Below are positions 1,047 to 59,800 of a DNA stretch of 64,000 bases, piece by piece; the stretch's first letter is position 1, and every line of letters begins with the position of its first letter. Origin of the DNA: Caldilinea sp. CFX5 (GTDB lineage Bacteria > Chloroflexota > Anaerolineae > Caldilineales > Caldilineaceae); assembly GCA_021405325.1 (NCBI GenBank), contig QWII01000007.1, positions 198,634 through 262,633 of the forward strand. Reading direction: 5' to 3'. Under the pieces are notes generated by a model. It had not been told where the DNA came from, did not search any database, and was given only the letters and a program-made list of their open reading frames with translations. The translations under genes and the position numbers were made by a program.

Positions 1047-2492
1047 TCACTGGCCGATCCCCTTTGCCGAAGGGTCAAGCAGCGTGCAAAACGTCAAGCC
1101 GTCTGCCGTACTTTGGCAATTGGTAAATGCTATGCGATCAGGTTGGTCGGCGGTTGCGCCGAGGCGGCCAGTGGTTGTATAAGCAATTGTCAGGCGTGGC
1201 TTATATCGGTCATTATTCCATTCGTTGGTGGCAAAGCCAAAGCGCGCACTATTGTCATCGGCCTTCTCTGGCCCAAACAGGATCAGTCCATAATTGGGTT
1301 GCGCACCATTGATCCAGCTGCGCACCAGTTCAGTGACATCAAGCAGATACTCGTTAGGGCCAATCGCATCTAGCGCAATGTCAAAGGCGCCGGCGGTTTC
1401 ACCACGAGCAGGTTTGCTGTTCCAGGTAACGCTTGCTTCGTCCCACGGTTCGCTAACGCGGTAAGCGGTAACGGTGCGGGTGCCGGCGCCACGCCAGCAA
1501 GCATTCACCAACCGGACACGTAGGGTGGCTTGGCTGATGGGAGTCTGCGGCGGGATCGCGGCAAGATCGAAGCGGATCAGACTGCGTCCAATCTTGAGAT
1601 CTGGTACACCCTGATGACAGCCCGCCCGGTCGTACCCAACCCACATATCGACAACCTCACCAAAATTGACCGTCGGCGCGCCTTCTAACACGGTGGTATC
1701 CATACTGCTATAGAAGGTTGTCGGCGGGCTGACCTGTGCTGTGACGACGTTGCTCCACTCACTAGCGCCCGATTGGTTGACCGCACGCACGCGATAGTAA
1801 TAGGTTCCGGCTGGTTTCGCCGTCGCCGTCCAAAGGGTAGCGGTGTTGGCCGACTGAATAGTAGCGCTGGCAAAAGCGGGATCATCATCTTCTTCCAGCG
1901 TATAAGTCTCCGCCCATCGCGCTGTCGCCCAAGTCACTGTAAAATTACCATCATGATCGCTATTGTCAATGGCGTTTAGCGCGGGTGTTTCCGGCAAGGG
2001 GCGAAATTGAATAATGGGCAAACTGACTTGATAAGGCGTTACAGTTGGCGTTACAGTTGGCGTTACAGTTGGCGTTACGGTTGGCGTTACGGTTGGCGTT
2101 GCAGTCACCGTTGGTGACGGGGTTGGCGGACTGGTTGGAGTGTCAGTGGCTGTGGAGGTAGCTGTCGGGGTCTCTGTCACCGTCGGTGATGGCGTGACTG
2201 TTGTCTGCTCAGTAATGGTAAGGGGCATTTCGATATTGGGCTGCGCACCGCCACTGAGAAAGACGCGCAGCGTATCGGCGGCCGTCCCAAAGGCCACGGC
2301 TGTAATGCTGGGGGCAAGAACAATCGTTTGGGCCAAGTAGGCGCTCTGTCCTACGGTCGGCGCCAGCAGTGTGAGCAACAGTAAGAGCAGCAGTCTATAG
2401 CCATTGATAGGAGTACGCCATTTCTTGCTTGTGTATGGGACGTCGCCAGGGGCTTGTTTTGCTTGCAAGTGGAGAATAGCGTGAACAAACAT
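1047..2492 (-). CDS. Secreted fibronectin-III / DNRLRE-domain protein with Thr-Pro linker
   Basis: 481 residues. The ATG at 2492 follows AAGGAGATCTGG, a good ribosome site. A hydrophobic stretch at about residues 32-50 acts as a signal sequence or anchor. It is followed by a Thr-Pro-rich linker (about 92-155) made by a 12-base tandem repeat, then VSLPIIQF, a relative of the YLPLV-type motif. Residues of about 165-255 look like a fibronectin type III domain (Trp/Tyr core, TYYYRVRAVN). Residues of about 258-450 look like a DNRLRE carbohydrate-associated beta-sandwich, as shown by RSLIRFDLAAIPPQTPISQA and the Trp-Asn pattern WDEASVTWN. I infer a cell-surface protein that may bind polysaccharide. 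No catalytic motif is visible. Confidence 0.7.
   Translation of the reverse strand: MFVHAILHLQAKQAPGDVPYTSKKWRTPINGYRLLLLLLLTLLAPTVGQSAYLAQTIVLAPSITAVAFGTAADTLRVFLSGGAQPNIEMPLTITEQTTVTPSPTVTETPTATSTATDTPTSPPTPSPTVTATPTVTPTVTPTVTPTVTPTVTPYQVSLPIIQFRPLPETPALNAIDNSDHDGNFTVTWATARWAETYTLEEDDDPAFASATIQSANTATLWTATAKPAGTYYYRVRAVNQSGASEWSNVVTAQVSPPTTFYSSMDTTVLEGAPTVNFGEVVDMWVGYDRAGCHQGVPDLKIGRSLIRFDLAAIPPQTPISQATLRVRLVNACWRGAGTRTVTAYRVSEPWDEASVTWNSKPARGETAGAFDIALDAIGPNEYLLDVTELVRSWINGAQPNYGLILFGPEKADDNSARFGFATNEWNNDRYKPRLTIAYTTTGRLGATADQPDRIAFTNCQSTADGLTFCTLLDPSAKGIGQ
2035..2106. repeat. Six 12-bp tandem repeats coding a Thr-Pro linker
   Basis: Six consecutive 12-base units (GGCGTTACAGTT with A/G changes in later units) lie inside the minus-strand gene at 1047-2492. 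Because 12 is a multiple of three, each unit encodes one TPTV tetrapeptide, and changes in copy number would alter the length of the extracellular spacer without shifting frame. Confidence 0.9.
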
Positions 2493-2521
2493 AATCCAGA
2501 TCTCCTTGATTCATTGTTCCT

Positions 2522-2559
2522 ATTGTGCAATAGTTTCTCCCTAGAAACTATTGCACAAT
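2522..2559. terminator. Perfect 17-bp stem, 4-base loop hairpin
   Basis: Arms 2522-2538 and 2543-2559 are perfect complements around the loop CCCT. It sits between the stop of the lipoprotein gene at 2592 and the start of the next minus-strand gene at 2492. It probably separates their transcripts. It lacks a clear T-run, so attenuation or RNA-end protection is also possible. Confidence 0.6.
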
Positions 2560-2591
2560 GACGTAGTTAGCTACCGTTCGTATTGAGCGCC

Positions 2592-3200
2592 TCACCGACA
2601 CTCAAACTGAATCTCTTGTTGAACAACTGCCGCCTCGGCCAGATCAAACCGATTGCCGGCTAATAGAAACGCAACCCAGTCAAACCCTTGTTGACGGGCT
2701 TTGGTTACTTCGGCGCGCATGCCCGTTTGATCGACAGTCATGCCGCTAGCGAATAACTCCTTGATGCCAAATTCAGCAGCCTGTGTATCAAGCCAACTGC
2801 CAATGACAGCCCACGGCCGGCCTTTAGGACATGGCCCGTCCGTATCGCGACTGCCCCATAAGACCACCGGGAGCATATACTCACCAGCTTTGATCGTCTC
2901 GAAGATAAACTGACCATCTTGGTCAGTCAACGTGGCGGTGAGGAAGTGCGTTTTCCCTTCGACGATCGCGTGCAGTTCAATGGTCGCCTCTGGGATCGGT
3001 AGCTGTTCGTCGCCAATCAACCAGGTTACGCGGCCTTCGATTGTCCCGCCGGCGCCTGGCGCCGCGGCTGCTACCGTAGGCGTCAGGGTAAGCCCAGCTT
3101 GTGTAGTCGGTGGGATGGGGCGAATCAAAGGTGTACAACCGTTCAGGAGAAGCGTAACAACTAGGAGCAAAAGCTGTGCTGAAGAAATGAGATGGTGCAT
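2592..3200 (-). CDS. Lipoprotein with carboxypeptidase-regulatory-like domain
   Basis: 202 residues. The N-terminus has a hydrophobic helix ending in the lipobox-like LLLNGC (Cys about residue 22), so the protein is probably lipid-anchored outside the membrane. After a Pro/Thr linker, GGTIEGRVTW, IPEATIELHA, TDQDGQFIFETIKAGEYML form a typical carboxypeptidase regulatory-like (CarboxypepD_reg) beta-sandwich. The last 80 residues (WAVIGSWLDTQAAEFGIKEL onward) are not recognised. The same kind of beta-domain forms the C-terminus of the putative anti-sigma protein at 9460, which may hint at a common surface-protein theme. The substrate or partner is unknown. Confidence 0.65.
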   Translation of the reverse strand: MHHLISSAQLLLLVVTLLLNGCTPLIRPIPPTTQAGLTLTPTVAAAAPGAGGTIEGRVTWLIGDEQLPIPEATIELHAIVEGKTHFLTATLTDQDGQFIFETIKAGEYMLPVVLWGSRDTDGPCPKGRPWAVIGSWLDTQAAEFGIKELFASGMTVDQTGMRAEVTKARQQGFDWVAFLLAGNRFDLAEAAVVQQEIQFECR

Positions 3201-3569: not shown

Positions 3570-6356
3570 TCAACGCATATTCTGTGGTAAGAACACTCGG
3601 AATGCTGCGGTGATCGGCTCTAGTAGCGTTGGTGGCGGGGTTGACGGCCCTGGGGGTACAGATCCCTTGATAAAATTGAACCAGCCCCAATCGCCTGGTA
3701 GATTGGGAAATAAGGTATGGTCGGTATATGGTTTGTAAACCGGATCATTGTCATGACGATGGTGGGGGTAGTAGATACCCAGACCCTGGGCGTTCTGCAA
3801 GGGGACGGTAATGGTTATGCCAAGATATTGAAAATCACCGGAGGTATCCCTTGCCTGTTTATAGATAATAAATTCTTTAGTCGCGGTTAGCACTGCGTTG
3901 GCTCCACTGGTAATTTCAGCAACATTCAAACTGGTCAGCGCGTTGGCGAGACTGGGCAGATCAACAATGTCATCCTGATTCGTGATCTGATAATCATCCG
4001 TATCATATTTTTGGACAGTCGGCCCATTCCGTGTGCGACTCAAGATTTCGCTGTTGGTAATGTTCGTTGTATAGGCTGCCAGCGCCTTGCCCAGTTGATC
4101 GGTCGTCGTGAGGACATTAGTATACTTTGCCATGTCAAAGACAGAGATGGTATAGGGGTAGCGATGTTCATCCGTCCAGACTTGCTTCTCATATTCCTGG
4201 GCAATTGCTTCCGCAAGTTGGCGTGGGTTCGGACTATTTTCACTCGCCCGCTGTCGATATGCGGGGTAGGCAAAGACGCCCCAAGCTGTGTTCGGCGAAG
4301 CAATGACATAATCAGTGTAGCCAGCCACTGTGGACGTGTCTTCAAACAAGCCAAAGGAGCAACCGTCAAAATGAATGATATGAAGCCTGCGCCCTTTTGG
4401 CGTACTGGCTTCGCGAATCGCGTCATGCAACTCCTTGGGCGTCAACATGGCCGTGTTGCGATTGCCGGATGTTTCATCCAAAGCGATGCCAAGCAGGCCA
4501 TTGGCATGATCGACGATGGCGAGATAATAATAAGTCGCGGGCAGCCGGTCAAAGCCCCAAACAAGAAAGTCGCGTAAGGTCTCTGGTTCATCCATCGTTG
4601 CTTCACCAAGCGCTTTTTCGGCTTTTAGCTCACTGCCCTCCGTAAGCACATAATATTTGCTGTCCTTTGCTCCCCTGCCATCAAATAGAATGCCGACTTG
4701 GACATTGGCGCGTGGGTCGGAACGCGCCAACTTTGCCAGCATCCCTGTGCCTGTTTCCCCTAAATAGTCAGCAAGATTATTATCACCGGCCGCATAGATG
4801 AATAATGTCCAGGTTACTGGCCCCGGTTCAGGGGGGATCAAACCAATGACATCGACTGGTGTTGTCCGATTTACTGTTGTCCCATCACCAAGCTGACCTT
4901 TGGCATTGGCGCCCCAACATTTGGCGCCGCCCGTGAGCAGAACGGCGCAACTATGGTGATAGCCGACGCCAATCGCTTTGACGCCGCTGCTGAGTCCCAC
5001 GACGTCAACGGGAAAGCTTTTGGCGTCTGTCGTTCCGTTCCCTAGTTGCCCTTCCCTATTCCGCCCCCAACATTTCACACCGCCTTGTGTTGTCAAGGCA
5101 CAGGTATGTTCGGCGCCGGCGCTGATTGCTTTAATACCTGTCAACGGCACATTGTCTCTTGTCATCACTTTGACCGGCGTTGGTTGATTCTCGGTGTTGA
5201 GCGTCCCCAGTTGCCCTTCATCATTGGCGCCCCAACAAAGCACTTCCCCTTCCACCGTCAGCGCGCAAGTGAAATAGCCACCTGCTGTGACTGCTTGTAC
5301 AGTGATGCCCTGTAAACCAACTACGTCGTCCGGAACATCGCGCCGTTCGCCGCTCGTCCCATCTCCCAATTCACCCTTGTGGTTGCTGCCCCAACATTTG
5401 ACGCCGCCGTCGGTTGTCACCGCACACGTATGCGCATAACCAGCATCCAACGCTGTGATACCGCTTGTTAATCCTGTGACCGTCATAGGGAGCGTCGATT
5501 GCGGCACATGGCCGCCCCCACCCCAACAGAGGACGGCTCCGCTTTTTCGTAAGGCGCAGGAATGCAGATTCCCTGTCGTCACCGCCACCACGCCGGCGGC
5601 TAACCCCTCGACCCTCGTCGGTTGCCAGCGGTGCGTATTAGTGCCATCGCCCACTGTCCCGGTGTAGTTATCCCCCCAGCACCAGGCGCCGCCATTGATC
5701 AAGGCGCAACTATGATTTTCGCCGCCGTCTGACCCGTCACTCCGGTTAGTGAGCTTTAAGGCATTGACTGGCTGGTGTCGCTCAGTCTGGGTGCCATCAC
5801 CCACTTGACCGCGTTCATTATACCCCCAGCATTTGATACCATTGCTCAAAGATGCACAGGTATGAACACGCCCGCCCTTGATCTGCAATGCTACCATATT
5901 CAAGCTGATATCGACCCGTTTCCCTTCAAACCCTACGGTTGTGGTGACAATGCGCGTGCGCCCGGCATAACTTGCTGTAAGGGTCAAACTCGCCTCCGGT
6001 TGCAGGGTCGGATCAAGGTGAGTAAGGCTAACGTAGAAGTAAGGGCAGAGGGAGAAATTGCCTGAGATCGTTTGGGTGGTTGTGACCTGGTTCGCTACAG
6101 TCAGCGTAACCTGTGCATTGGTCACAGGATAACCATCCAATAACACATAACCGCTCACAAAATTCTTGTCGCCGGGTAAGCCGGGGACGCTGCTGCCATG
6201 CGGTAAGGGCGGCAATGGCAGCGGCGGCGTCGGGCTTACTGTACAGGATGGCTCGTCATGCAAAGCCTTAGCCGCGACCAGTTTGCGCGCGCCAAGCCAG
6301 AGCATGAGGCCAATCAACAAACAACAGGGGAGATAGGTGATCACTTTGCGCAGCAT
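3570..6356 (-). CDS. Secreted RCC1-repeat protein fused to a clostripain-family (C11) peptidase
   Basis: 928 residues from the ATG at 6356, chosen because GGAGGT lies 7 bases upstream; a TTG 21 bases earlier is open but less likely. Order: signal anchor (about 7-30), Pro-rich linker, a beta-sandwich (about 65-150), seven RCC1/BNR repeats (about 155-505, each with HSCAL or HTCAL and CWG), then a C11 cysteine-peptidase domain (about 513-885). The peptidase shows the His of IVDHANG (about H617) and the Cys of FDGCSFG (about C666), the expected dyad. The tail is FRVFLPQNMR. Family knowledge: clostripain-like enzymes cleave after basic residues and share the caspase fold. I infer an exported protease whose RCC1 propeller presents substrates or a ligand. 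It stands just downstream of the CHAT operon. Confidence 0.8.
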   Translation of the reverse strand: MLRKVITYLPCCLLIGLMLWLGARKLVAAKALHDEPSCTVSPTPPLPLPPLPHGSSVPGLPGDKNFVSGYVLLDGYPVTNAQVTLTVANQVTTTQTISGNFSLCPYFYVSLTHLDPTLQPEASLTLTASYAGRTRIVTTTVGFEGKRVDISLNMVALQIKGGRVHTCASLSNGIKCWGYNERGQVGDGTQTERHQPVNALKLTNRSDGSDGGENHSCALINGGAWCWGDNYTGTVGDGTNTHRWQPTRVEGLAAGVVAVTTGNLHSCALRKSGAVLCWGGGGHVPQSTLPMTVTGLTSGITALDAGYAHTCAVTTDGGVKCWGSNHKGELGDGTSGERRDVPDDVVGLQGITVQAVTAGGYFTCALTVEGEVLCWGANDEGQLGTLNTENQPTPVKVMTRDNVPLTGIKAISAGAEHTCALTTQGGVKCWGRNREGQLGNGTTDAKSFPVDVVGLSSGVKAIGVGYHHSCAVLLTGGAKCWGANAKGQLGDGTTVNRTTPVDVIGLIPPEPGPVTWTLFIYAAGDNNLADYLGETGTGMLAKLARSDPRANVQVGILFDGRGAKDSKYYVLTEGSELKAEKALGEATMDEPETLRDFLVWGFDRLPATYYYLAIVDHANGLLGIALDETSGNRNTAMLTPKELHDAIREASTPKGRRLHIIHFDGCSFGLFEDTSTVAGYTDYVIASPNTAWGVFAYPAYRQRASENSPNPRQLAEAIAQEYEKQVWTDEHRYPYTISVFDMAKYTNVLTTTDQLGKALAAYTTNITNSEILSRTRNGPTVQKYDTDDYQITNQDDIVDLPSLANALTSLNVAEITSGANAVLTATKEFIIYKQARDTSGDFQYLGITITVPLQNAQGLGIYYPHHRHDNDPVYKPYTDHTLFPNLPGDWGWFNFIKGSVPPGPSTPPPTLLEPITAAFRVFLPQNMR

Positions 6357-6617
6357 AGAATGAACCTCCGCTATCAAGTAGTTGCCACAATGGTGCAGAC
6401 CGCGACCAACAGACGCCGGGAAGTAACACGTTGGGTAGGAGCAATGAGCGCCTTCCCATACTGCTTGTATTTATCAAGGTAGATTGATCAAGGGCTGCCT
6501 GCTTTTATAAACACACGCACTGAGCGTCTTTATGAACGAATTTTGTCGGGCGAATTGATTGTAGTGATAGTTTTATTTCACCCGTGCACAGGAAAAGCTC
6601 CTGCGCCGACCCTCGGT

Positions 6618-9437
6618 TCAAGCGCTAAAGCATTGTGTCGTTGCGTTTGATGGCAGGCTGGTTGTGTAGTATTGAAATGCTGCGTAGTAATAAGGATGAA
6701 GATAGCCGTGGTTACGCACCTCGGCTTGGGCTATCTTCAACGCTTGCGCAACCGGGTGACCGGCGCGCAAAGCGCGATAGAAGCAACCCATCAATAAACA
6801 GGTCGCTTCATCATCAACCGGCCACAAACTCGCCACGGTTTGGGCGCCCGCAATCAGGCAAGCGCCGGCCAGGGCCAAGGCAACACCGCCCTGTTCAGGC
6901 ATTGTAACGGTGTCACATGCGCTCAGTACAACGAGTGACCCGCGCAATTGGAGACGGAGCAGGTCAGCAAGGAGAAACTGACCGTCAGCCAGTTCAATGG
7001 CTGATAACAATGGTCTGTTTGGATCGCTGTGCGCGTGGGCAGCAATATGTAGAAAGCGTGGGGAACGAATGGCATCCATTGCCGCCACGGTAGCCGGATT
7101 GATAATGGTGACGGTCGGAAATGCGGTGCGAATCGCTGTTAATTCCGCATCAATAAAGTGGAGCGGCGGCTCACCGGCATACCCTAACGCAAAAGCCGGT
7201 TGCGCATTTGCCTGGTGTGGTGAAGATTGTTGAACAGCAAGCGCCAGCGTTGCGGCAGATGGGATGAGTGAAATCGTCAAATCTGTGTCCGCCAGGCCAA
7301 CAAAGAGGGCGCTCCAAGGTAGCGCAAAGAGTTGGCTGTCCGGCGCAAGATAGAGTGGCCCGGTGGTCGGTAGATACGGGACGAGCGGGGCGAGCAGTAA
7401 AGCGCGTAGCTCTGTCAGCAACTGTTCTGCACTGGCTAACTGCTTGCGCGCAACGGTTTGCCGTTGTTCGGCTGTGGCGGCCGATTGGATAGGCGCCAGT
7501 AATAAGCGGAGCAAGTTCAGCCATTGTGTGACGGCATCAACCTTGCAAAGTGAGACCCATCGCGGCGCTGCCCCTTGTTTGAACAGACAGCACCAAACGT
7601 TAGTACTCCCGACAAAAAAATCGAGGACGGGAATTTCACCCAATCGTTCTTGTAAATCGGCAATCGTTGGTAATGACTGTGGCTCACGCCGGCGACTTTG
7701 TAAGCGCGCCGCGGTTGTGATCTGAATCTCTAGCGCCTCCAGCTTACGTTGACAACGTTGTTTCATTGCCGGCGTATCAGCCATATGCAGGGCATCGCGC
7801 CACAGGCTGAGTTCAGCTTTTAGCTGCACCCAGGTGGGGGAGATCGCTTGGGTGGTAGCCGACGCCCAAAGGTCAACCCAAATCCCGCCTTTTGCTTCGA
7901 GCAAGGTGGCGGCTGCATTAGCAAAGTGATGACTTTGGTGTTGTGCTTCGATCAAGTCACGATAGAGTGTTGCATGACCACTAAAGAGATTCGCCTTCAA
8001 CTCTTCTACCGGCATCAAGGTGCGTAGCCGTGCGCCAACGTCCGCCGCCTGCCGTAGGAATGGGATGGCGCGAGCGGCTCTTTGCCGATGCGCCAGGGTT
8101 AGCAAGGCTTCCTGCTCAATCGCCCCCATGCCTTGTTGACGTGCTTCCTCGACGATAGCTTGCAGGCGTTGGTTGGCTTGCGGTTGGCGTAACTGTGCGG
8201 CTAGTTGCGCGGCAATGAGCCTGGCTTCCAGGGTTTCCGCCGGTAGATCGAATTGTTGGTGCCGAATGATAGCCTCTTCCACAGCGGCGAATGCCTGCCG
8301 CCGCGCGGCCACTGTTTGTTGCAGCTTGGGATGGCCGGCGTAAACTTGAAAACGCGCTTGTTGCTGTGTCGTGGCGTTTTTGTAGAAAGGGTGCGCAGTT
8401 GCCAATAAAGTTTGGGCAAAGTCAACTTTATCAATTGCAAGCGCAAGGCGCACTGCTAATAAATAGGCGTCAAACGCTTCAGTGGCAAGGCTAGCCAGTG
8501 CATACCGTTGGGCCGCCGCCAGCGCTTCGGTGATCCCGCTGCTTGCCATGCAGAGCCGTTCATATAGGCGAGCGCGCTCCAGCGCGACCGTCGCCAGATT
8601 GAGTTCAAAGGGGGTTTTCGTAAAGTTGTCGGCGGCGGTTTGTAAAAAGTTGAACCCGGCATAGAGATCATCCAACAAAATTGACTGCCGGGCGAGATTC
8701 AGCGCCGCCCGCCCGGCAACCTCGTGAAAGCCATGTGTGCCGGCTAAGGTCAAGGCTGAACGCATTGCCTCCTCGGCGGCACGCCATTGACCGTTAAAGA
8801 ACGCGGCATTTCCCTGGTTGATCAAGGCATGACCGCGCAATAGTTGGAAGTTGACGCGTTGCGTCGGCTGCTGCCGGCAGAACTCTTCTAATTGCGCAAC
8901 TGCTTTTTGGGCAATCTGTGCTGCTGCGCTATATTGCCCCAAATAGGTCAAAATGTGAGAATAGTTAATGTATAAACTCGGCAACTGCGGGTGGTCCGGG
9001 TAATCCGCCAAACAGATCGAGGCGCGTTGAATGCGCGCTTCTGCTTCTTCTAAACGACCCAACAGCAAGTATTGCGCGGCGAGGCCAATCAACACTCGCC
9101 CCTCTTTTTCCGATTGTGCACTCTGCACATAATGCTGACAGGCGGCCTCAAGGGAAGAGATCGCTTGGAGGTAATCACGGTTGAAGTAAAAAATACCCTG
9201 ACACCACTGAGCTGCCGCCAGATCCTCCGCTGTCTGTGTTACGTCTGCAATGGCCAAGGCAAGTTGAAGAATTTGTTCTGCCGACCTCCCATGATTCTCG
9301 TTGATTTGCTGATAGATCAAACGCCGTGCTTCTTCCAGCAACGCTTGCACCGGCAGCGCTTGCCCAAGGAGTGACGGCAGCGCTTGCGGCTCATTTTGAT
9401 AAGCTGCTAAGAGGGCGAGGCAATCGAGAAGGGGCAT
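6618..9437 (-). CDS. TPR-CHAT protein (caspase-fold protease)
   Basis: 939 residues from the ATG at 9437; a TTG at 9455 is an alternative start lying only 4 bases past the previous stop. Residues to about 560 are alpha-helical repeats of TPR type (for example LGRLEEAEARIQRA, FNGQWRAAEEAMRSAL). The C-terminal 330 residues form a CHAT domain with the dyad His in FLHIAAHAHSD (about H801) and Cys in VVLSACDT (about C841). The following GGVALALAGACLIAGAQTVA and LWPVDDEAT are family signatures. CHAT proteins are cysteine proteases of the caspase/separase clan, controlled through their repeats. The gene is coupled to the anti-sigma-like gene at 9460 and the sigma gene at 10434, so the likely target is a regulator of that sigma factor. 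No transmembrane segment is seen. Confidence 0.88.
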   Translation of the reverse strand: MPLLDCLALLAAYQNEPQALPSLLGQALPVQALLEEARRLIYQQINENHGRSAEQILQLALAIADVTQTAEDLAAAQWCQGIFYFNRDYLQAISSLEAACQHYVQSAQSEKEGRVLIGLAAQYLLLGRLEEAEARIQRASICLADYPDHPQLPSLYINYSHILTYLGQYSAAAQIAQKAVAQLEEFCRQQPTQRVNFQLLRGHALINQGNAAFFNGQWRAAEEAMRSALTLAGTHGFHEVAGRAALNLARQSILLDDLYAGFNFLQTAADNFTKTPFELNLATVALERARLYERLCMASSGITEALAAAQRYALASLATEAFDAYLLAVRLALAIDKVDFAQTLLATAHPFYKNATTQQQARFQVYAGHPKLQQTVAARRQAFAAVEEAIIRHQQFDLPAETLEARLIAAQLAAQLRQPQANQRLQAIVEEARQQGMGAIEQEALLTLAHRQRAARAIPFLRQAADVGARLRTLMPVEELKANLFSGHATLYRDLIEAQHQSHHFANAAATLLEAKGGIWVDLWASATTQAISPTWVQLKAELSLWRDALHMADTPAMKQRCQRKLEALEIQITTAARLQSRRREPQSLPTIADLQERLGEIPVLDFFVGSTNVWCCLFKQGAAPRWVSLCKVDAVTQWLNLLRLLLAPIQSAATAEQRQTVARKQLASAEQLLTELRALLLAPLVPYLPTTGPLYLAPDSQLFALPWSALFVGLADTDLTISLIPSAATLALAVQQSSPHQANAQPAFALGYAGEPPLHFIDAELTAIRTAFPTVTIINPATVAAMDAIRSPRFLHIAAHAHSDPNRPLLSAIELADGQFLLADLLRLQLRGSLVVLSACDTVTMPEQGGVALALAGACLIAGAQTVASLWPVDDEATCLLMGCFYRALRAGHPVAQALKIAQAEVRNHGYLHPYYYAAFQYYTTSLPSNATTQCFSA

Positions 9438-9459
9438 GGCGGTGGTTTGCTCCAAGTGG

Positions 9460-10200
9460 CTATTCTGTCAACACAAGGTCGGCAATGATTGCTATCCCTT
9501 CAGCAAAGTGGATCTTTAGTTGATAGATACCGGCTTTAATGTCACGAAAAGTGAAGTAGCCGAGCGAATTCGTGGTCGCACGTAAGCCCCGTCCACCCCG
9601 CTGATTTTGTAGAATGAGTAGAAGGTCGGCTAGCGGCGCCTCCTCATTGGCCGTGTGGTTAATCATCCCACTCATTATCCAGCGTTCGCCATACAGAGGA
9701 TGGGTAATCTGTATACGGACAGATGCTTGCGCTTCCTCGACTACATAAAATCGCTCTGTCATCGCTCCCGCCTTCATTGTCGGCGCGTCGGAAGAGCGCA
9801 CTCCAGCCGCCTGAGGCCGGCTTGTGTGAGAAGCGTTGGGGGAGGCGACTAGGCGCGCAAACCACGGGGATGATGGGCGCTGTTGTGGCCTTGCCCGTTG
9901 TTGTCTTGCTTCGTGGCGCAGGCTTGCCATCTCAGCGCGCCCTCGCAGACTATTGCGCTCGTAAGCGGCGACAAACAGCTTTTGTTGGTCAGATGCTTGC
10001 TCCAACGCCACATCCACCAAATCACCGGGCGCCGGACGACCAATGCCATCAAAGGTTTGATAGAGCCAGGCGTCTAGCGCGCGCAATTCTTCTAATTTCT
10101 GCTGTAAGGCTGGGGAGGCACGGAGCGCTTCGTCAAGCCCCGGAATCTCTTCGCCTTCTAAATAAGCCAATAAATCAACATCAGAAATTGGGTGCATCAT
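9460..10200 (-). CDS. Putative anti-sigma protein with C-terminal beta-sandwich
   Basis: 246 residues. The N-terminus (DVDLLAYLEGE, then helices to about 80) resembles the sigma-binding start of anti-sigma factors but lacks the HxxxCxxC zinc motif. Residues of about 85-150 are an Arg/Gln/Ser/Pro-rich, probably disordered linker. Residues of about 158-246 form a beta-sandwich like carboxypeptidase-regulatory domains (SLGYFTFRDIKAGIYQLKI). No membrane helix is seen, so it would act in the cytosol. It lies after the sigma gene and 4-22 bases before the TPR-CHAT gene. I infer that it holds the sigma factor and could be cut in the linker by the CHAT protease. That function rests on context, not on a firm family match. 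Confidence 0.55.
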   Translation of the reverse strand: MMHPISDVDLLAYLEGEEIPGLDEALRASPALQQKLEELRALDAWLYQTFDGIGRPAPGDLVDVALEQASDQQKLFVAAYERNSLRGRAEMASLRHEARQQRARPQQRPSSPWFARLVASPNASHTSRPQAAGVRSSDAPTMKAGAMTERFYVVEEAQASVRIQITHPLYGERWIMSGMINHTANEEAPLADLLLILQNQRGGRGLRATTNSLGYFTFRDIKAGIYQLKIHFAEGIAIIADLVLTE

Positions 10201-10242
10201 AAACTCGCTTTGCCAATTGATTCAACATCCCGATTCGGCTTG

Positions 10243-10317
10243 GGCTTCCCTTCCCCGAAGAGGCAACTGATATTCTGTCGTACCCAACAGGTCCCGCCTC
10301 TTTGGGGAAGGGGAGCC
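10243..10317. repeat. 22-bp imperfect inverted repeat between sigma and anti-sigma genes
   Basis: Arms 10243-10264 and 10296-10317 pair over 22 bases with two imperfections (one could be G-U), around a 31-base loop. It lies in the 233-base gap of the minus-strand sigma/anti-sigma/CHAT operon. It could lower read-through from the sigma gene into the downstream genes. Confidence 0.6.
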
Positions 10318-10433
10318 ACGCCAATGTCTGCCTAGGTACGGTTCAACGGTATAGCCGATAGCTCTACCTTTATAAACACGAATTGAAACTGCTTTGTTGA
10401 TCGAATGTTGGCCCTCTACAATTAGGTTGCCCA

Positions 10434-11159
10434 TCATCGCGCAACAGTCGATTCGCACAGCAGTTGCAACAACCCAACAATGATTGGCATTTGCACAGCG
10501 GTCATTCCTTGCAGACGCAGTGCCGTCACTGTGCGCGTTTCAAGCCCCATGATTTCGGCAATTTCCGCCGTAGATTCGCCCAAGCCATAGTAACGCTCAA
10601 GTACTTCGCGGACTTGTGGGTTGGGCAGCTTACTCAAAATCTGCTGCCAGAGCAAACGCCGCTCAATTTCGTTGGCTGGTGATGGTATGGTTAATCCTGC
10701 CGGAGCCTGGTACTTATATTGCTCATTTTCATCGGGGAAAGATACAATAAGCGGCACGCGTTGCTGTTGGCGTTTTAGATTCAGAACAAAATGATGTAAC
10801 GTAATATTGACATAACTACAATACTCTGCAAAGGTTGAGACGCGAAAGGGGGCTGATCGATTGTTGAATTTTTGTAATAGCCGCAAATTAATTTCTTGAA
10901 CAATATCCTCTATCTCGCCAAGTAGTTCAGGGTATTTTCTTTGACATCGGCGCATGATGATGGGTTTTGAAATGCGCTCAAGGAGGATGCCACGCGCCTC
11001 CATATTTTGCTCTACAACGGCGCGCCTGACGATTTCGGCACAGCTTGCGCTATCGACGACCAGCCCACTACGATACGCTGCCATTTTCTCTTGGCACTCA
11101 CCGAGCAGATCCATTAATGTTTTTTCAGCCAAGAGCTGAAGCGAGTCATAGGTATTCAT
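10434..11159 (-). CDS. RNA polymerase sigma-70-family factor (ECF-like)
   Basis: 241 residues. The middle part contains a sigma region 2-like helix set, with GEIEDIVQEINLRLLQKFN (polymerase-binding and DNA-melting region) near residues 80-105. The C-terminal part has a region 4-like helix-turn-helix: LPNPQVREVLERYYGLGEST followed by AEIAEIMGLETRTVTALRLQ (about 175-222). It therefore looks like an alternative sigma factor of the ECF type, with an extra N-terminal 50 residues not recognised. It heads the minus-strand cluster with the putative anti-sigma gene and the TPR-CHAT gene. The likely regulon includes this operon itself, but no promoter could be assigned. Confidence 0.82.
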   Translation of the reverse strand: MNTYDSLQLLAEKTLMDLLGECQEKMAAYRSGLVVDSASCAEIVRRAVVEQNMEARGILLERISKPIIMRRCQRKYPELLGEIEDIVQEINLRLLQKFNNRSAPFRVSTFAEYCSYVNITLHHFVLNLKRQQQRVPLIVSFPDENEQYKYQAPAGLTIPSPANEIERRLLWQQILSKLPNPQVREVLERYYGLGESTAEIAEIMGLETRTVTALRLQGMTAVQMPIIVGLLQLLCESTVAR

Positions 11160-11240: not shown

Positions 11241-11314
11241 ATCAGCGTGCATTGCACGGGGCACAGATCTTCAGAAGACAAGCAGGACGTCTGACACGTG
11301 CAATGCACGCTGAT
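11241..11314. repeat. 18-bp perfect inverted repeat upstream of the sigma gene
   Basis: Arms 11241-11258 (ATCAGCGTGCATTGCACG) and 11297-11314 are perfect complements around a 38-base spacer. It lies between the sigma gene start and the broken rhamnosidase gene. The arms contain the self-complementary TGCATTGCA-like core. It may be a terminator for the remnant or another of the intergenic palindromic elements of this genome. Confidence 0.7.
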
Positions 11315-11319
11315 TTACC

Positions 11320-11937
11320 TTAAAACTGATATGCGCCCGTGCGTTGAGAAAATTGAACTGGCATTGAATTGAATAGAAGTATAGTTGTAGTATTAATCAG
11401 AAGTGTGAAAAAGTCAACAAGGAATAACGAGTTATGCTCACCCTTTCTTTCCTTATTTTGCCGTGCGCCCAGGCCAACATGGCCCGCGGCCCAACCATCA
11501 CCCAGAATAAAGGCTTTGCGCATGTAAGGAGCCGGTACAGTGGTGCGGGGGCCGCCGGTCAATGATGCGCCAATCCACTTGGCTTTCCAATCAGCGCGCC
11601 GCAAGAGACCCATTTCAAACCAGGCCGGTTCGCTGGCGGCCGTATTGCCTTGTTCATCCCAGATGGTCACTTGCCAATAGACGCGCTGGCGCGCGGTGAC
11701 TGGCTTGCCCTCGTAGGGCAGTTGAATCGATTGAGCGGAGACAACTTTGCCGGTGTCCCAATAATCGGCTCTGCCTGCTTGTAACAGGGTGGGATCGCTG
11801 GCGGCGCGAAGGCGGTAGGCGGTCTGGCGGGCGCCTCGTTGGTCGCTTTGCAGTTGCCGGGCGAGGCGGGGCGCCGGCACATCAATGCCCAGGGGATTGG
11901 TGTGGTATTCGCAGGTGAGGTTGGTAACCGTGATCAT
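11320..11937 (-). pseudogene. Remnant of a GH78 alpha-L-rhamnosidase
   Basis: The first 143 or so codons match the N-terminus of bacterial GH78 rhamnosidases (CEYHTNPLGIDVPAPRL, YWDTGKV, RVYWQVTIWDE, WKAKWIGA, PYMRKAF). The sequence then jumps directly to ILGDGWAAGHVGLGARQ, a motif that in the family lies some 60-80 residues further on. After that it becomes unrelated (NKERKGEHNSLFLVDFF). A complete enzyme is about 900 residues, so the gene has both an in-frame internal deletion and loss of its 3' three-quarters, including the catalytic barrel. It is unlikely to be active. Confidence 0.8.
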
Positions 11938-38640: not shown

Positions 38641-41244
38641 TTAAACAGGCTCGTCCTGCCTAAGCGCCTCATCCACGACCGTCGCGAGGCTCTTCGCCTT
38701 TACTCTCATCTGAATTGCGGCAACTTGCTGCGGAGTCAATTGCGCAGCCACGGCGAGTTGGCGTGCTGCGGCCTGGTTGCGGGTCTCTTGATCGCTGGCG
38801 GGGTGCTGCAAGACCAGTAAGAGCAATTCGAGGGCATGTTCCAACTTGCCGCGCTTGGCCTGTAGACTGGCGAGGCCGACCAGCGCCTCCAGGATCACAG
38901 GGGGGCTATGGGTTTCGGTTGCGATCCGCAAGGACGCGCGCCAGGCGCCCTCAGCTTCAGCGTCATGGCCCAGCGCAAAAACGCTTTGGGCCAGCTCGGC
39001 CAACACGCGCGCCACCCACCAACTGCCACCCAATTCCGTGAAGATCTCCAGGCTTTGGCGGAACATCGCCACGGCCGGCCTATGCTCGCCTAGCCGTTGG
39101 GCGACGACGCCAAGTCCCCGATAGGCCGAAGCGACGCCCCAGCGGTCACCAAGCGAACTGTTCACGGCAGCGCTTTCCTCCAACGCGGTGCGCGCTTCAG
39201 CGTACCACCCCAAGCGGAGTGCGCTCTGGCTAAGGATGCGCAGCCCAAATGCCGTAAACCGGGGATCGCCAATGGCGCGCCAATCGGCCACGGCGGACTG
39301 TAAGCAGGCGTGCGTCTGCGCAGGGTTGGCGGTTCCGCTGGTATTCGCCGTCAACCCATGCAGACAAGTCTGGCTCAACGCGGTGTACCAGCGATCGTCA
39401 ATGCCAGTGGCAAGCTCCGCCCCCTCCCCATACAGCGCCAATGCTCTGGCGTAGTTGCCGGTCACTTCCATCAACATGCCGAGAAAGGTGATCGCTTCGA
39501 TCAACACGCGCGGCTCATGCAAGGGGCGCAGGATGGCCAAACTGCGTTCCAGCATCGCTTGCGCCGGCTCGTAGTGGGCCAGTCGGTAGTCCAGCCAACC
39601 GTGCGCGGCCAGGAGATGGCCCAGTGCGACCTGGTTTGTTCGATCAGAGGGGGCGTGCGCCAGGGCGGCTTCCAGCGCCGTGATGGTGCGACCAAGCACA
39701 TCGCACCCTTCCTGAAACCAGCCACGCAGGTCGTAAAACCACTTCAACAGGCGCATGGTCTGCTCGATCAAGGTGAATTCGCCCTGCGTCACTGCCCATG
39801 CCCAGGCGGCGCGGAAGTTATCCATCTCGGCGGTCAACTCGGCAATGGTTTCGCGCTGCGCCGAACTGCGAAAGCGTCCCTCTGCCCGGCTGAAAAAGGT
39901 AAGGTAATATTGGCCGTGACGTGCCTGCGTGGCGCGCGCTTCTTCAGCCTGATTGCCGAGTTGTTCCGCAGCAAACTGGCGGATGAGTTCATGCAGTTCA
40001 TACCGGCTGGCGCCGTTCCGGCGGATGAACGATTTCGTCACCAACGCGGCCAACGTCGCCAGCCGTGCGCCTGCTACGGCTTCTGCCGCCTCGCGCCGAA
40101 AGCCGCCGCGGAAGAGCGTCAGCCGGCGCAGAACGCCCTGCTCCTCTGCACTGAGCAGGCGCCACGAATGGTCAAAGACGGCGCGCAGCGAGTGGTGACG
40201 CGCAGGCCGATCACGCACCGCTACCTCCAAGAAATCCAGCCCGTGGGCGATCTCCTCTGCGATCTCCTCACAGGTCAGCGTTTGCACCCAGGCCGCGGCC
40301 AGTTCAATGCCCAGCGGCATCCCCTCGACCAACTGGCAGATGCGGACGATGGCGGGGTAATCAGCGGGCGTCGCATTGAACCGGACATAGGCCCGTCGGG
40401 CGCGTTGCAGGAACAACTCGACCGACGTATGGGACGCCCCGGCCACGGCGTCACCGCTGGTGGGGATCGGCAACCCTTGCACTTCAAAGACCCATTCCCC
40501 TTGCACGCCGACTGTTTCCCGCGAGGTCGCCAGCAGCTTCACCTGCGGTGCATGGGCCAGCAATTCGGTCAACACCTCGATGCCTGGCTCGGCCAACAAC
40601 TGCTCAAGATTGTCGGTGAGCAGCAGCATCTGCTTGGTCTGGAGATAGCGGAGTAACTGGCTTTTGGGATCGGCTGATCCCCCGCCTGGAAAGGCAAAGC
40701 CAACGGCGTCGGCGATCACCGGCACGATCAAACGCGTGGTGTTGACCGGCGCCAAGGGGACAAAATAGACGCCATCGCTGAAGCGCTCCTGGATCTGGGT
40801 CGCGGTCGCAATCGCCAGGCGCGTCTTGCCAATCCCACCAGGGCCAACCAGCGTCAGCAGGCGGCATTGGGCGTCGTCCAGGAGTTGGCTGAGTTCGGTC
40901 ACTTCGCGCTGGCGGCCAATCAAAGGCGTGGGCAAGACGGGGAGGTTGCTGCGGGGGTGCGCGACGGCGGGCGGAACGGTTGCATCGGGGTTCGCCCATG
41001 CCGACGACGGGAGTCGATCCACCCGCAATTCGCCGCGCGCCACCTTTGTGAAAGTAGCGCGATCGGTTGGCGGAATGTTCAGCGCGTTGGCCAGCAGCTC
41101 GGCAATTTGCGTCGAGGGGTGGCGTTCATCGTCTTCGATCTTGCGCAGCAGGGCGACCGAGCAACCGACCCGTTCGGCCAGTTGTTCACGGGTGAGGTGG
41201 CGTTGTGTGCGCTGTTGCCGAAGCCATGCGCCAAAGGTATCCAT
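38641..41244 (-). CDS. XRE-STAND transcriptional regulator (HTH, NB-ARC ATPase, TPR)
   Basis: 867 residues from the ATG at 41244; a start 27 bases earlier is possible. Residues 1-60 are an XRE helix-turn-helix (FGAWLRQQRTQRHLTREQLA). Residues of about 105-400 are a STAND ATPase: Walker A LTLVGPGGIGKTRLA (about 132-146) and LLLLTDNLEQLL, then the winged-helix part EEQGVLRRLTLFRGGF. The rest is TPR-like helices. Such regulators sense ligands through the repeats and switch on ATP binding. It diverges from the cupin/ABM/DDN/cytochrome gene run at 41349, which is the natural candidate target. Confidence 0.9.
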   Translation of the reverse strand: MDTFGAWLRQQRTQRHLTREQLAERVGCSVALLRKIEDDERHPSTQIAELLANALNIPPTDRATFTKVARGELRVDRLPSSAWANPDATVPPAVAHPRSNLPVLPTPLIGRQREVTELSQLLDDAQCRLLTLVGPGGIGKTRLAIATATQIQERFSDGVYFVPLAPVNTTRLIVPVIADAVGFAFPGGGSADPKSQLLRYLQTKQMLLLTDNLEQLLAEPGIEVLTELLAHAPQVKLLATSRETVGVQGEWVFEVQGLPIPTSGDAVAGASHTSVELFLQRARRAYVRFNATPADYPAIVRICQLVEGMPLGIELAAAWVQTLTCEEIAEEIAHGLDFLEVAVRDRPARHHSLRAVFDHSWRLLSAEEQGVLRRLTLFRGGFRREAAEAVAGARLATLAALVTKSFIRRNGASRYELHELIRQFAAEQLGNQAEEARATQARHGQYYLTFFSRAEGRFRSSAQRETIAELTAEMDNFRAAWAWAVTQGEFTLIEQTMRLLKWFYDLRGWFQEGCDVLGRTITALEAALAHAPSDRTNQVALGHLLAAHGWLDYRLAHYEPAQAMLERSLAILRPLHEPRVLIEAITFLGMLMEVTGNYARALALYGEGAELATGIDDRWYTALSQTCLHGLTANTSGTANPAQTHACLQSAVADWRAIGDPRFTAFGLRILSQSALRLGWYAEARTALEESAAVNSSLGDRWGVASAYRGLGVVAQRLGEHRPAVAMFRQSLEIFTELGGSWWVARVLAELAQSVFALGHDAEAEGAWRASLRIATETHSPPVILEALVGLASLQAKRGKLEHALELLLLVLQHPASDQETRNQAAARQLAVAAQLTPQQVAAIQMRVKAKSLATVVDEALRQDEPV

Positions 41245-41278
41245 GTTCGCCTCGCTTTTACAGATTGTCACACTTTTT

Positions 41279-56840: not shown

Positions 56841-59800
56841 ATGTTTGTCCGTGACTATCGGAACTTCGACCTACTAATTGAAACTGCGACACAAGGGTAT
56901 CGCGCCTACGTTCTCAATGCACCTGGCGGAGAAGGCGAGACGATCTTTTCGGCTCCGTTTTCGCTGGAAGAACTGGGGCAACTGGCCGAGAGAGCGTCAT
57001 TACCCCAACGAAGCCAGCAGACCCGACCGGTAAATCAGGCGATGTCACTAAACCCACAAGTGGTCGGTGAGCGACTCTTCACTGCTGCCTTTCGTGAGAA
57101 AGTGGCTGACATCCTACGCGACAGTTTAGCTAGAACTGACAAGGAAGGCCAAGGCCTGCGTATCCGCCTGCGCCTACACAACGCGGGTGATCTTGCTGAA
57201 CTGCCCTGGGAGTACCTCTTCGACCCAACCCGACACGAATTTCTTGCCCTTTCCGAACGTACACCTGTAGTCCGTTACCTGGAAATAGCCAGGGGTACAC
57301 GACGCAGTGAAGCTTTCCAGATAGCTGGACCCTTACGTATTCTAGTTGTGTTGGCCGAACCAATTGATGTTGTCCAGCTCAACGTCAAGCAGGAATGGCA
57401 GAAACTCCAGGCCACCCTAGAACGGTTACAGCAACGTGGGCTAGTTGTGTTGGAACAATTATTACAGCCGACTCGCGCCGCCCTCCAGCACCGCCTGGCT
57501 CAACCCACCGATCCCATCCACGTGCTACACTTTATCGGTCATGGTATGTGGCTCTCTGATCAACATATTGGTTGTCTGGTCTTCGAGAATGAATTAGGAA
57601 ATGCCGACCTGGTCACTGCGGATATACTGGCAAACCTGATTCGCGACCACGACGCCCTGCGCCTGATCTTCCTCAATGCCTGTGAGGGAGCGCGTAGTAG
57701 CAAGGCGGACCCTTTCGCTGGGGTAGCGCCGGCGCTGGTAAGCGCCGAGGTTCCTGCAGTCATAGCCATGCAGTTTGCGGTCACTGATGACGCGGCGACC
57801 CGCCTCGCTGCTGCGTTTTACACCGCTCTGGCCGACGGGCTGTCGGTGGACGCCGCGCTGGCCTACGCCCGGAAGGAGATCTACGCCAGGCAGGCGCCTG
57901 CTAGTGGCCCGATTGATTTAGAGTGGGGTACGCCCGTGCTTTTCATGCGCGCTGAGAAAGGGGAACTCTTCGACCTGCGCGACCTCAAGCCCACGCCACC
58001 CTGTCCTTACCCTGGCATGGTTCCCTTTGGCGAAACGGACAAAAAACGCTTTTTCGGTCGCGAGGCCGAGATTCGTGAGGCGATGGAGGCCCTGCGCCTG
58101 CACCGCTTCCTAGCCGTGATCGGTCCTTCGGGCTGCGGTAAGTCGTCGCTAGTCTTTGCCGGCATCCTACCTGCACTGCAGACATCGCACTACTTTGCAG
58201 ATGGGGAGTGGATAGTTAAAAAGATGCGCCCAGGCGAGCAGCCCTTGCGCAATCTGACTGATCTAATGGGATTGACATTCGACGAACTGCGTCAGTTTTG
58301 CATCCACCCGCCCACCCTTGCACCTGGCCAGCGGCTGCTCCTCATCGTTGACCAGTTTGAAGAGGTCTTCACCCAAAACGATGTCTCGGCGCGAGAGAAC
58401 TTTGAGCAAGCGCTGCAACATCTGTTGAACTTGCACAACCTCTATGTAATTCTCACTATACGTGCTGACTTTTATGCTGACCTCTTCGTCTTATCCCTTT
58501 GGAGACAGATTAAGGACCACCGCCTGGAGGTAGGGCCGCTCAAGGGCGACTCGTTGCGCCAGGCCATCGAGCGTCCAGCCAAGGATGTATGGGTAGATCT
58601 AGCACCGACACTTGTAGAACGACTACTCGCCGATGCCGGCGATGAGCCAGGTGTTTTGCCCTTCATCCAAGAAACGCTGGTGATGCTGTGGGGACATGTG
58701 CGCCGGCTGGCACTGGATCTGGACGCCTATACCGACCTGGTGGGCGACAAGAGCGGACGCACAGGTCTGCAGGTTGCGATAGCCCAACGTGCCGAAGATG
58801 TGTATAAGAAGTTACCAGATGCAGGTCAAACTTTGGCCCAGCGCATTTTTCTGCGCCTGGTGCAGTTTGGCGAGGGTCGCGCCGACACGCGTCGCCAGCA
58901 GACAGTGGATAGGCTACGCACCAGCGCCGATGATCCTCAGCTTTTTGATGCAACTCTGGAAACACTTACTCAATATCGCCTGGTCACTGTGAGCAATGAA
59001 CGACGCTACGTCGATATTGCTCATGAAGCACTGATTGCAGGGTGGCCGCGGTTGCATGACTGGATCAAACAGCGCCGCACAGCTGAGCAGACCCGTCGAC
59101 GGCTTGAAGAACAAGCCACCGAGTGGGTGCGCCTACATGGTCAAGGTGGCCTGCTTGATGCGTATGAACTGCACGAGGCGGAAAGCTGGCTTGCCAGCAC
59201 CGATGGTAAAGAACTTGGCGCCAGTAAAGATTTGCACGTGCTAGTGGATGCCAGTCGGACAGCCCTTGAGCAAATGAACAGCGAAAGGGACGCAGCGCGC
59301 CAACGCGAACTGGATCAAGCTTATAAACTGGCCGAGCAACAAGGAAAACTGGCGGATGAACAGCGCCTGCGTGCGGAGGAGCAAGTCACTGCCAACGTGC
59401 GCTTGAACCGACGCGCGTGGATCGCTATTGGTGCAGGTATCGTTGCCCTCCTCTTTGCGATAGTGGCGAGTTGGTTCGGTATCGCAGCCAACCGGAGAGC
59501 AGCTATTGCGCTGGCTCGTCAGTTGTCTTCACAAGCCATTGATCTCAGTGAAACACTTCAAGACCCGGAGTTAGGCCTACTGCTGGCGCTTGAAGCAATC
59601 AATGCTATGCGAAATGCCAGAAAAACGTTGCCAGAAGTTGATGATGCATTACGGCGAGCACTTGCGGAAGCACCTATCACAACACTGCGCTACAAGGTTG
59701 CATCAAGCAATCCCCGTATTGTTTTCAGCCCAGATGGCTCGCGCCTCGCTAGCATCAGCGCAATAGGGGGGAGTGAAAAAGGTGGCACCTTTCGCTTGGT

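Follow-up and report, generated by a model that had tools for sequence, protein, structure and literature searches.

The window analysed here, a 64,000-nucleotide stretch of the Caldilinea sp. CFX5 genome, carries three minus-strand genes, encoded together, for an extracytoplasmic function (ECF)-type sigma factor (P0001), an anti-sigma factor (P0002) and a TPR-CHAT protease (P0003). The three open reading frames (ORFs) lie where a preliminary description of this DNA had placed them (Table 1). The protease gene starts with a TTG codon 4 nt past the anti-sigma stop codon, and the sigma and anti-sigma genes are separated by 233 bp; in 53 related triads, the median gaps are 64 bp (sigma/anti-sigma) and 12 bp (anti-sigma/CHAT). 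The same description had named the three parts as sigma factor, anti-sigma and TPR-CHAT protease, and the matches to TIGR02937, to zf-HC2 across the anti-sigma family and to PF12770 bear this out.

Table 1. Positions in the window of the three genes, their parts and the gene that follows them.
Feature	Position	Strand	Remarks
ECF-type sigma factor P0001, 241 aa	10434..11159	minus	Chloroflexota family member; model match starts at residue 69
Anti-sigma P0002, 246 aa: two zinc-less anti-sigma units, linker and beta-sandwich	9460..10200	minus	AlphaFold2 (AF2) model; alignment to zf-HC2 relatives
P0002 residues 1-50, first anti-sigma unit	10051..10200	minus	HxxxCxxC replaced; most relatives have HxxxCxxC here (A2)
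P0002 residues 58-103, second anti-sigma unit	9892..10029	minus	Ligands replaced, also in L135; helices 58-65, 71-83, 85-103
P0002 residues 104-146, linker	9763..9891	minus	pLDDT <50 at 113-115 and 124-137
Arg135 codon CGC, predicted P1, Val134-Arg135 / Ser136	9796..9798	minus	Arg column of relatives; codon checked
P0002 residues 147-244, C-terminal beta-sandwich	9469..9762	minus	Eight model strands; CarboxypepD_reg-like, below cut-off
TPR-CHAT protease P0003, 945 aa	6618..9455	minus	CHAT and TPR_12 matches; AF2 model
CHAT domain, residues 679-929	6669..7421	minus	PF12770
Catalytic His807 codon	7035..7037	minus	Kept in 51/51 aligned proteins; codon checked
Catalytic Cys847 codon	6915..6917	minus	Kept in 51/51 aligned proteins; codon checked
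RCC1-repeat protein with clostripain (Peptidase_C11) domain, possible fourth gene	3570..6377	minus	PF03415 94.1 bits, RCC1; 240 bp downstream

Judged by its sequence, P0001 is an ECF-type sigma factor: it matches the sigma70-ECF model TIGR02937 with 46.6 bits, above the cut-off of 42.9, and Sigma70_r4_2 with 29.7 bits (cut-off 25.7), region 2 staying under its own Pfam cut-off. In support of this, 9 of the 11 sigma factors in the family profile (A1) match TIGR02937 at an E value of 0.01. Since the delta-aminolevulinic acid dehydratase of the window is 78% identical to that of the Chloroflexi metagenome-assembled genome LacPavin (L001, G001), the class of the latter was searched. P0001 gave a match at E 0.001 in 31 of 298 genomes of this class, from which 20 neighbourhoods were taken and 11 genomes left out. 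With the A1 profile, 96 matches (E 1e-8) came from 79 of 396 genomes sampled from one Chloroflexota class, and a phylum-wide search at E 1e-15 detected the family in 59 of 301. In three other phyla, assigned via the titles of their entry loci, the family occurred in 0 of 246, 0 of 99 and 0 of 117 genomes, and 12 mixed genomes gave one weak match. In the genomes searched, Chloroflexota was the only phylum where the sigma family turned up.

The middle gene product gave little by itself: a CarboxypepD_reg match at residues 186-231, below the cut-off, and a very weak match to a "putative anti-sigmaE" (E 0.097). Its family was more informative. In its members, a single HxxxCxxC unit or two of them spaced by about 55 residues precede a variable linker and, at the C terminus, a beta domain; 40 of the 54 members of the family alignment (A4) match zf-HC2 at E 0.01 or better; the anti-sigma profile A2 also matched ChrR, weakly (E 0.12). 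Among the 57 protease-linked rows, which take in the window, L095 and L097, 40 have two HxxxCxxC copies, 13 have one and four have none. P0002 is one of these four: its zinc ligands are replaced, as they are in L135 (34-35% identical), and the HxxxCxxC motif of zinc anti-sigma (ZAS) factors is absent from both. The alignment thus places P0002 in the ZAS lineage, its own zinc ligands lost, and not in an unrelated family, the outcome that would have spoken against the first reading. The AF2 model, built from 54 sequences (mean predicted local distance difference test score, pLDDT, 85; predicted template modelling score 0.55), has six helices up to residue 103, a linker whose confidence is lowest at residues 124-137, and an eight-strand sandwich. 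Beyond the anti-sigma-like start and the linker of the preliminary description, this protein thus also has a folded C-terminal beta-sandwich. We regard this sandwich as the predicted docking module for the protease. With a highest 19-residue hydropathy of 1.22, P0002 is predicted to be soluble.

P0003 matches the CHAT family PF12770 with 133.8 bits (cut-off 24) and also matches TPR_12. With its domain above the gathering cut-off and both catalytic residues in place, it is a predicted CHAT protease whose His-Cys dyad, as first described, is intact. Its AF2 model (mean pLDDT 88.8) resembles Csx29 and separase, the first PDB match being Csx29 (8eey_B), and its TPR part resembles peptide-binding regulators such as Rap and NprR. 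Two conserved residues, Glu771 and Asp882, lie near the positions that hold the P1 Arg in Arg-specific caspase-like proteases. Against the Csx29 model NF041237, P0003 scored 34 bits over residues 795-884 only, the curated cut-off being 300; in the CHAT alignment (A5), 43 of 51 members match this model with E values of at most 0.001, down to 5e-23.

The gene order recurs across Chloroflexota. We examined the neighbourhoods of 91 of the 96 A1 matches (E 3.5e-18 or better), excluding L095 and L097 from the count because they were found through CHAT. A same-strand CHAT gene lies within 1.5 kb downstream of the sigma gene in 55 of the 91 loci, and in 54 of these 55 a family anti-sigma stands beside the sigma; in a second sample of 40 neighbourhoods, from the phylum-wide search, the order was present in 14. 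The conservation on which the first reading depended is thus there. As for the other 36 loci, two have CHAT farther on, 24 have none in the stretch examined and 10 have less than 3 kb after the sigma gene. The opposite strand of the 34 loci without downstream CHAT carries no CHAT either; note that in four of them (L138, L208, L238 and L135) a contig end cuts an ORF matching the family TPR part. In the first class-wide search, the window sigma matched L135 best; this locus has the same middle gene, followed by a TPR protein. Around ordinary ECF-like matches among the 20 neighbourhoods, CHAT was found on either strand in none of eight (L136, L145, L146, L147, L149, L150, L151 and L154; L146 and L150 cover only about 5 kb). 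Another locus, L101 (2434-7283), has a triad of a different sigma, in the middle a 274-aa protein without any Pfam match at E 0.5, and a CHAT protein.

The second sample also allowed us to compare anti-sigmas with and without the beta domain. Twelve anti-sigmas of 127-151 aa consist of zinc units only and have no adjacent CHAT, and three longer ORFs (L306, L320, L328) likewise stop shortly past the second unit. CHAT was the next gene, on the same strand, in 0 of these 15 loci versus 14 of 19 loci with the beta domain (Fisher p 1e-5, uncorrected for kinship); the comparison leaves out L303, L316 and L331, at contig ends, and L317, L327 and L330, where no anti-sigma was found. Beyond the 14, the beta-domain locus L324 has a divergent CHAT gene. 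Since several genomes with short anti-sigmas carry CHAT matches elsewhere, the contrast holds per locus and not per genome.

A single residue stands out in the linker. In an alignment of 81 anti-sigmas, two of which (L206 and L259) have no residue at this column, it is Arg in 74 of the 79 alignable sequences, the rest being Lys (2), Tyr (2) and Cys (1). The next residue is Gly in 71 of the 79, and before the Arg stand one mostly hydrophobic and one mostly small residue. The Arg and Gly columns hold 3.89 and 3.67 bits of information, versus 0.3-2.2 bits at 23 other positions examined. The 57 protease-linked rows have Arg (54), Lys (2) or a gap (1), that is, Arg or Lys in 56 of 56 alignable, and 51 of 56 clusters at 50% identity are purely Arg. 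In the second sample, 21 of the 22 beta-domain loci (3 at contig ends) keep the Arg by eye, and the residue after it varies; the metagenome relatives P0004 and P0005 retain it too. The two Tyr exceptions, L242 and L245, belong to membrane-type anti-sigmas, and the stretch examined around each contains no CHAT gene. The Cys row (L209) comes from G394, where a stop codon interrupts the best full-length CHAT match, a single case. In the window, the site falls within the disordered stretch of the model (pLDDT <50), and Arg135 is accordingly a predicted, candidate cleavage site for the CHAT protease.

We also searched 23 genomes with loci lacking an adjacent CHAT gene for CHAT proteins (E 1e-20). 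Matches above 500 bits occur elsewhere in G046, G079, G178, G156, G092, G269, G358, G240, G220, G272 and, with one stop, G394; G069, G140 and G097 have theirs in the triads. Such matches were lacking in G333, G054 and G131, where no family anti-sigma adjoins the sigma gene, and in G223, G243, G159, G150, G045 and G242, of which G243 and G045 gave partial matches. Four loci (L189, L190, L204 and L153) hold a second family sigma and an anti-sigma with a VRG site but no adjacent CHAT, with more ECF-like and anti-sigma-like genes downstream; their genomes also hold a full triad, and a protease acting in trans is possible. In L207 and L210, whose genomes have no whole family CHAT match, a family sigma without anti-sigma is directly followed by a gene whose 532-540 aa product begins like a lipoprotein.

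The triad may extend to a fourth gene (Table 1). In 35 of 57 CHAT loci, a same-strand gene of more than 150 aa starts within 300 bp after CHAT; these 35 products include 21 subtilases (Peptidase_S8), one clostripain (C11) and one gingipain-type protease (C25), some of the loci being closely related. Beyond the RCC1-clostripain gene, on the same strand (1047-3200), the window encodes a CBM96 protein and a CarboxypepD_reg-like protein (below cut-off). On the other side, a 205-aa ORF just upstream of the sigma gene (11320-11937), whose sole match is to the N-terminal Ig domain of a Rha78A-like rhamnosidase, looks like a broken gene end. Two inverted repeats, one upstream of the sigma gene (11241-11314) and one between the sigma and anti-sigma genes (10243-10317), have arms of 23 and 22 nt, 91% complementary, 28 and 31 nt apart, and are possibly small mobile elements or terminators. 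Farther away, the window encodes an 876-aa protein (38641-41271) with a helix-turn-helix, an NB-ARC/AAA-like ATPase and TPRs, probably a STAND-type regulator, and a single ORF of 2188 aa (56841-63407).

Taken with moderate confidence, these results suggest a proteolytic transcription switch: a CHAT protease specific for Arg and gated by a signal would cut the anti-sigma in its linker and so free the sigma factor. By analogy with its relatives, the anti-sigma would keep the sigma inactive through its tandem N-terminal units, and its beta-sandwich would dock on the TPR-CHAT protein. On the model of Csx29 and separase, the TPR part would sense a ligand or partner and switch on the CHAT domain, which would then cleave the disordered linker after the conserved Arg (Arg135 in the window). 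The cut anti-sigma would be inactive or degraded, and the sigma would start its regulon, to which its own operon and the adjacent protease gene may belong. Zinc-less P0002 has lost the usual zinc/redox switch and kept the linker, the Arg and the protease, which makes proteolysis its likeliest trigger.

Several observations weigh against such a switch. Twelve family sigmas pair with the short, zinc-only anti-sigmas and have no adjacent CHAT, which suggests that inhibition needs no more than the anti-sigma units. A cut C-terminal of them need not release the sigma unless the stub is destroyed, and a further degradation step may be needed; a stub that could still bind sigma is the main weakness of the model. 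Glu771 and Asp882 are also present in CHAT proteins outside the sigma-family triads and thus are not markers of this system, and the separase P1 acid D2151 (Csx29 K670) appears aligned, at the end of a weak alignment, with the non-acidic Cys886. In the alignments the linker Arg accompanies the beta domain, so it could serve the fold or an interface rather than cleavage. G564 (L334) keeps the beta domain and the Arg with no CHAT at E 1e-60, and G242 (L185, 2.2 Mb) has the Arg but no complete CHAT match, which counts against the Arg-CHAT rule unless the assembly is incomplete. Finally, the S8, C11 or C25 product of the fourth gene could be the relevant protease instead.

The strongest rival makes the TPR-CHAT protein the output of the sigma: the zinc units, or a ligand bound to the sandwich, would switch the anti-sigma, and CHAT would be an effector cutting other targets, for example in stress or cell death. 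ECF sigma genes commonly lie upstream of the genes under their control, most relatives keep the zinc ligands (among 57 protease-linked anti-sigmas, 40 have both copies), and the second protease gene that often follows fits an effector operon. However, this leaves unexplained the isolated, near-invariant linker Arg and the same-locus pairing of linker and sandwich with CHAT (14/19 versus 0/15). Nor does it suit the window anti-sigma, which has no zinc ligands, or G538, where the CHAT gene is divergent from the sigma; we consider it unlikely. Less probable still, the linker Arg-Gly/Ser would be a docking or folding element, and CHAT would control the anti-sigma by a means other than cleavage, such as a TPR scaffold that pulls it off the sigma. 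The joint occurrence of Arg and beta domain, the Rap- and NprR-like TPR parts and the binding of Csx29 to an uncleavable Csx30 mutant (PMC10028731) speak for this. By contrast, the Arg sits where pLDDT is below 50, and the invariant catalytic His and Cys (51/51) make a pure scaffold unlikely. A chance neighbourhood of unrelated genes, which the wide 233-bp gap might suggest, is hardly credible: it is contradicted by the order recurring in relatives (55/91 loci and 14/40 of the second sample), L135 with its same middle gene and TPR protein among them.

The Arg-specific switch may be one case of something wider. Tentatively, and with clearly less confidence than for the switch itself, we propose a widespread, CRISPR-independent "separase switch" in which a TPR-read signal leads to a single-Arg cut of a dedicated anti-sigma, and operons are then turned on that often hold a second protease of subtilase, clostripain or gingipain type. 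In Chloroflexota it would act as a two-step protease cascade, and type III-E CRISPR would have recruited Csx29, Csx30 and CASP-sigma from a module of this kind. The one TPR-CHAT protein we found described as freeing a sigma by inhibitor cleavage works inside a CRISPR complex (PMC10028731). If true, a stand-alone switch would show a possible origin of the type III-E module, and separase-like proteases, relatives of the enzyme that splits chromosomes in human cells, would gain a bacterial role in gene regulation. The predicted Arg site makes substrate and specificity directly testable, and a protease, a cleavable inhibitor and a sigma would form a compact part set for synthetic transcription control.

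Other systems share some of these features. Compared with eukaryotic separase and its substrates securin and cohesin, the window system is bacterial, its predicted substrate is an anti-sigma and the site has no ExxR motif. Anti-sigma proteolysis also frees ECF sigmas in the RseA/DegS and RsiW systems (PMC10028731), but the window anti-sigma is predicted to be soluble and the proposed protease belongs to clan CD, CHAT family. A caspase-like protease is encoded beside a sigma in the EACC2-caspase systems (ECF sigma, DUF1822; PMC8195603) and in metacaspase operons with sigma-70 (PMC3501461); these use other protease families, and the available portions of the two papers describe no anti-sigma with a predicted cleavage site.

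The closest resemblance is to Craspase, of which the preliminary description had made the triad a CRISPR-free relative. In Craspase, Csx29 cuts Csx30, and CASP-sigma is blocked by full-length Csx30, not by its fragments (PMC10028731). The cut was mapped to residues 427-429, and no alanine substitution in Csx30 abolished cleavage (PMC10028731), or it was placed after L407 (PMC9729208), and Csx29 is without the P1-Arg-binding acid of separase (PMC9729208). The absence of CRISPR parts beside the genes was correctly noted: the 64-kb window has no CRISPR-like array (a synthetic control was detected), and PADLOC matched no Cas protein among the 14 window proteins scanned. Sequence searches gave no match named Csx30 or CASP-sigma, and no Csx30 was among the structure matches listed, which mainly cover the beta-sandwich. 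Two further differences are that the window inhibitor is of zinc anti-sigma lineage and that its predicted cut follows an Arg. Thus family membership fails, with 34 bits for a Csx29 cut-off of 300 and neither Cas7-11/gRAMP nor an array at the locus, and the triad is not a Craspase. What stands is a likeness in fold and layout: both systems encode a TPR-CHAT protein, a sigma inhibitor and an ECF sigma (CASP-sigma/RpoE in Craspase) together, both proteases have the CHAT fold, with Csx29 heading the structure matches, and Csx30 likewise has an N-terminal sigma-binding part, a linker and a C-terminal domain (PMC10028731). On current evidence, the triad would work like the Csx29-Csx30-sigma switch.

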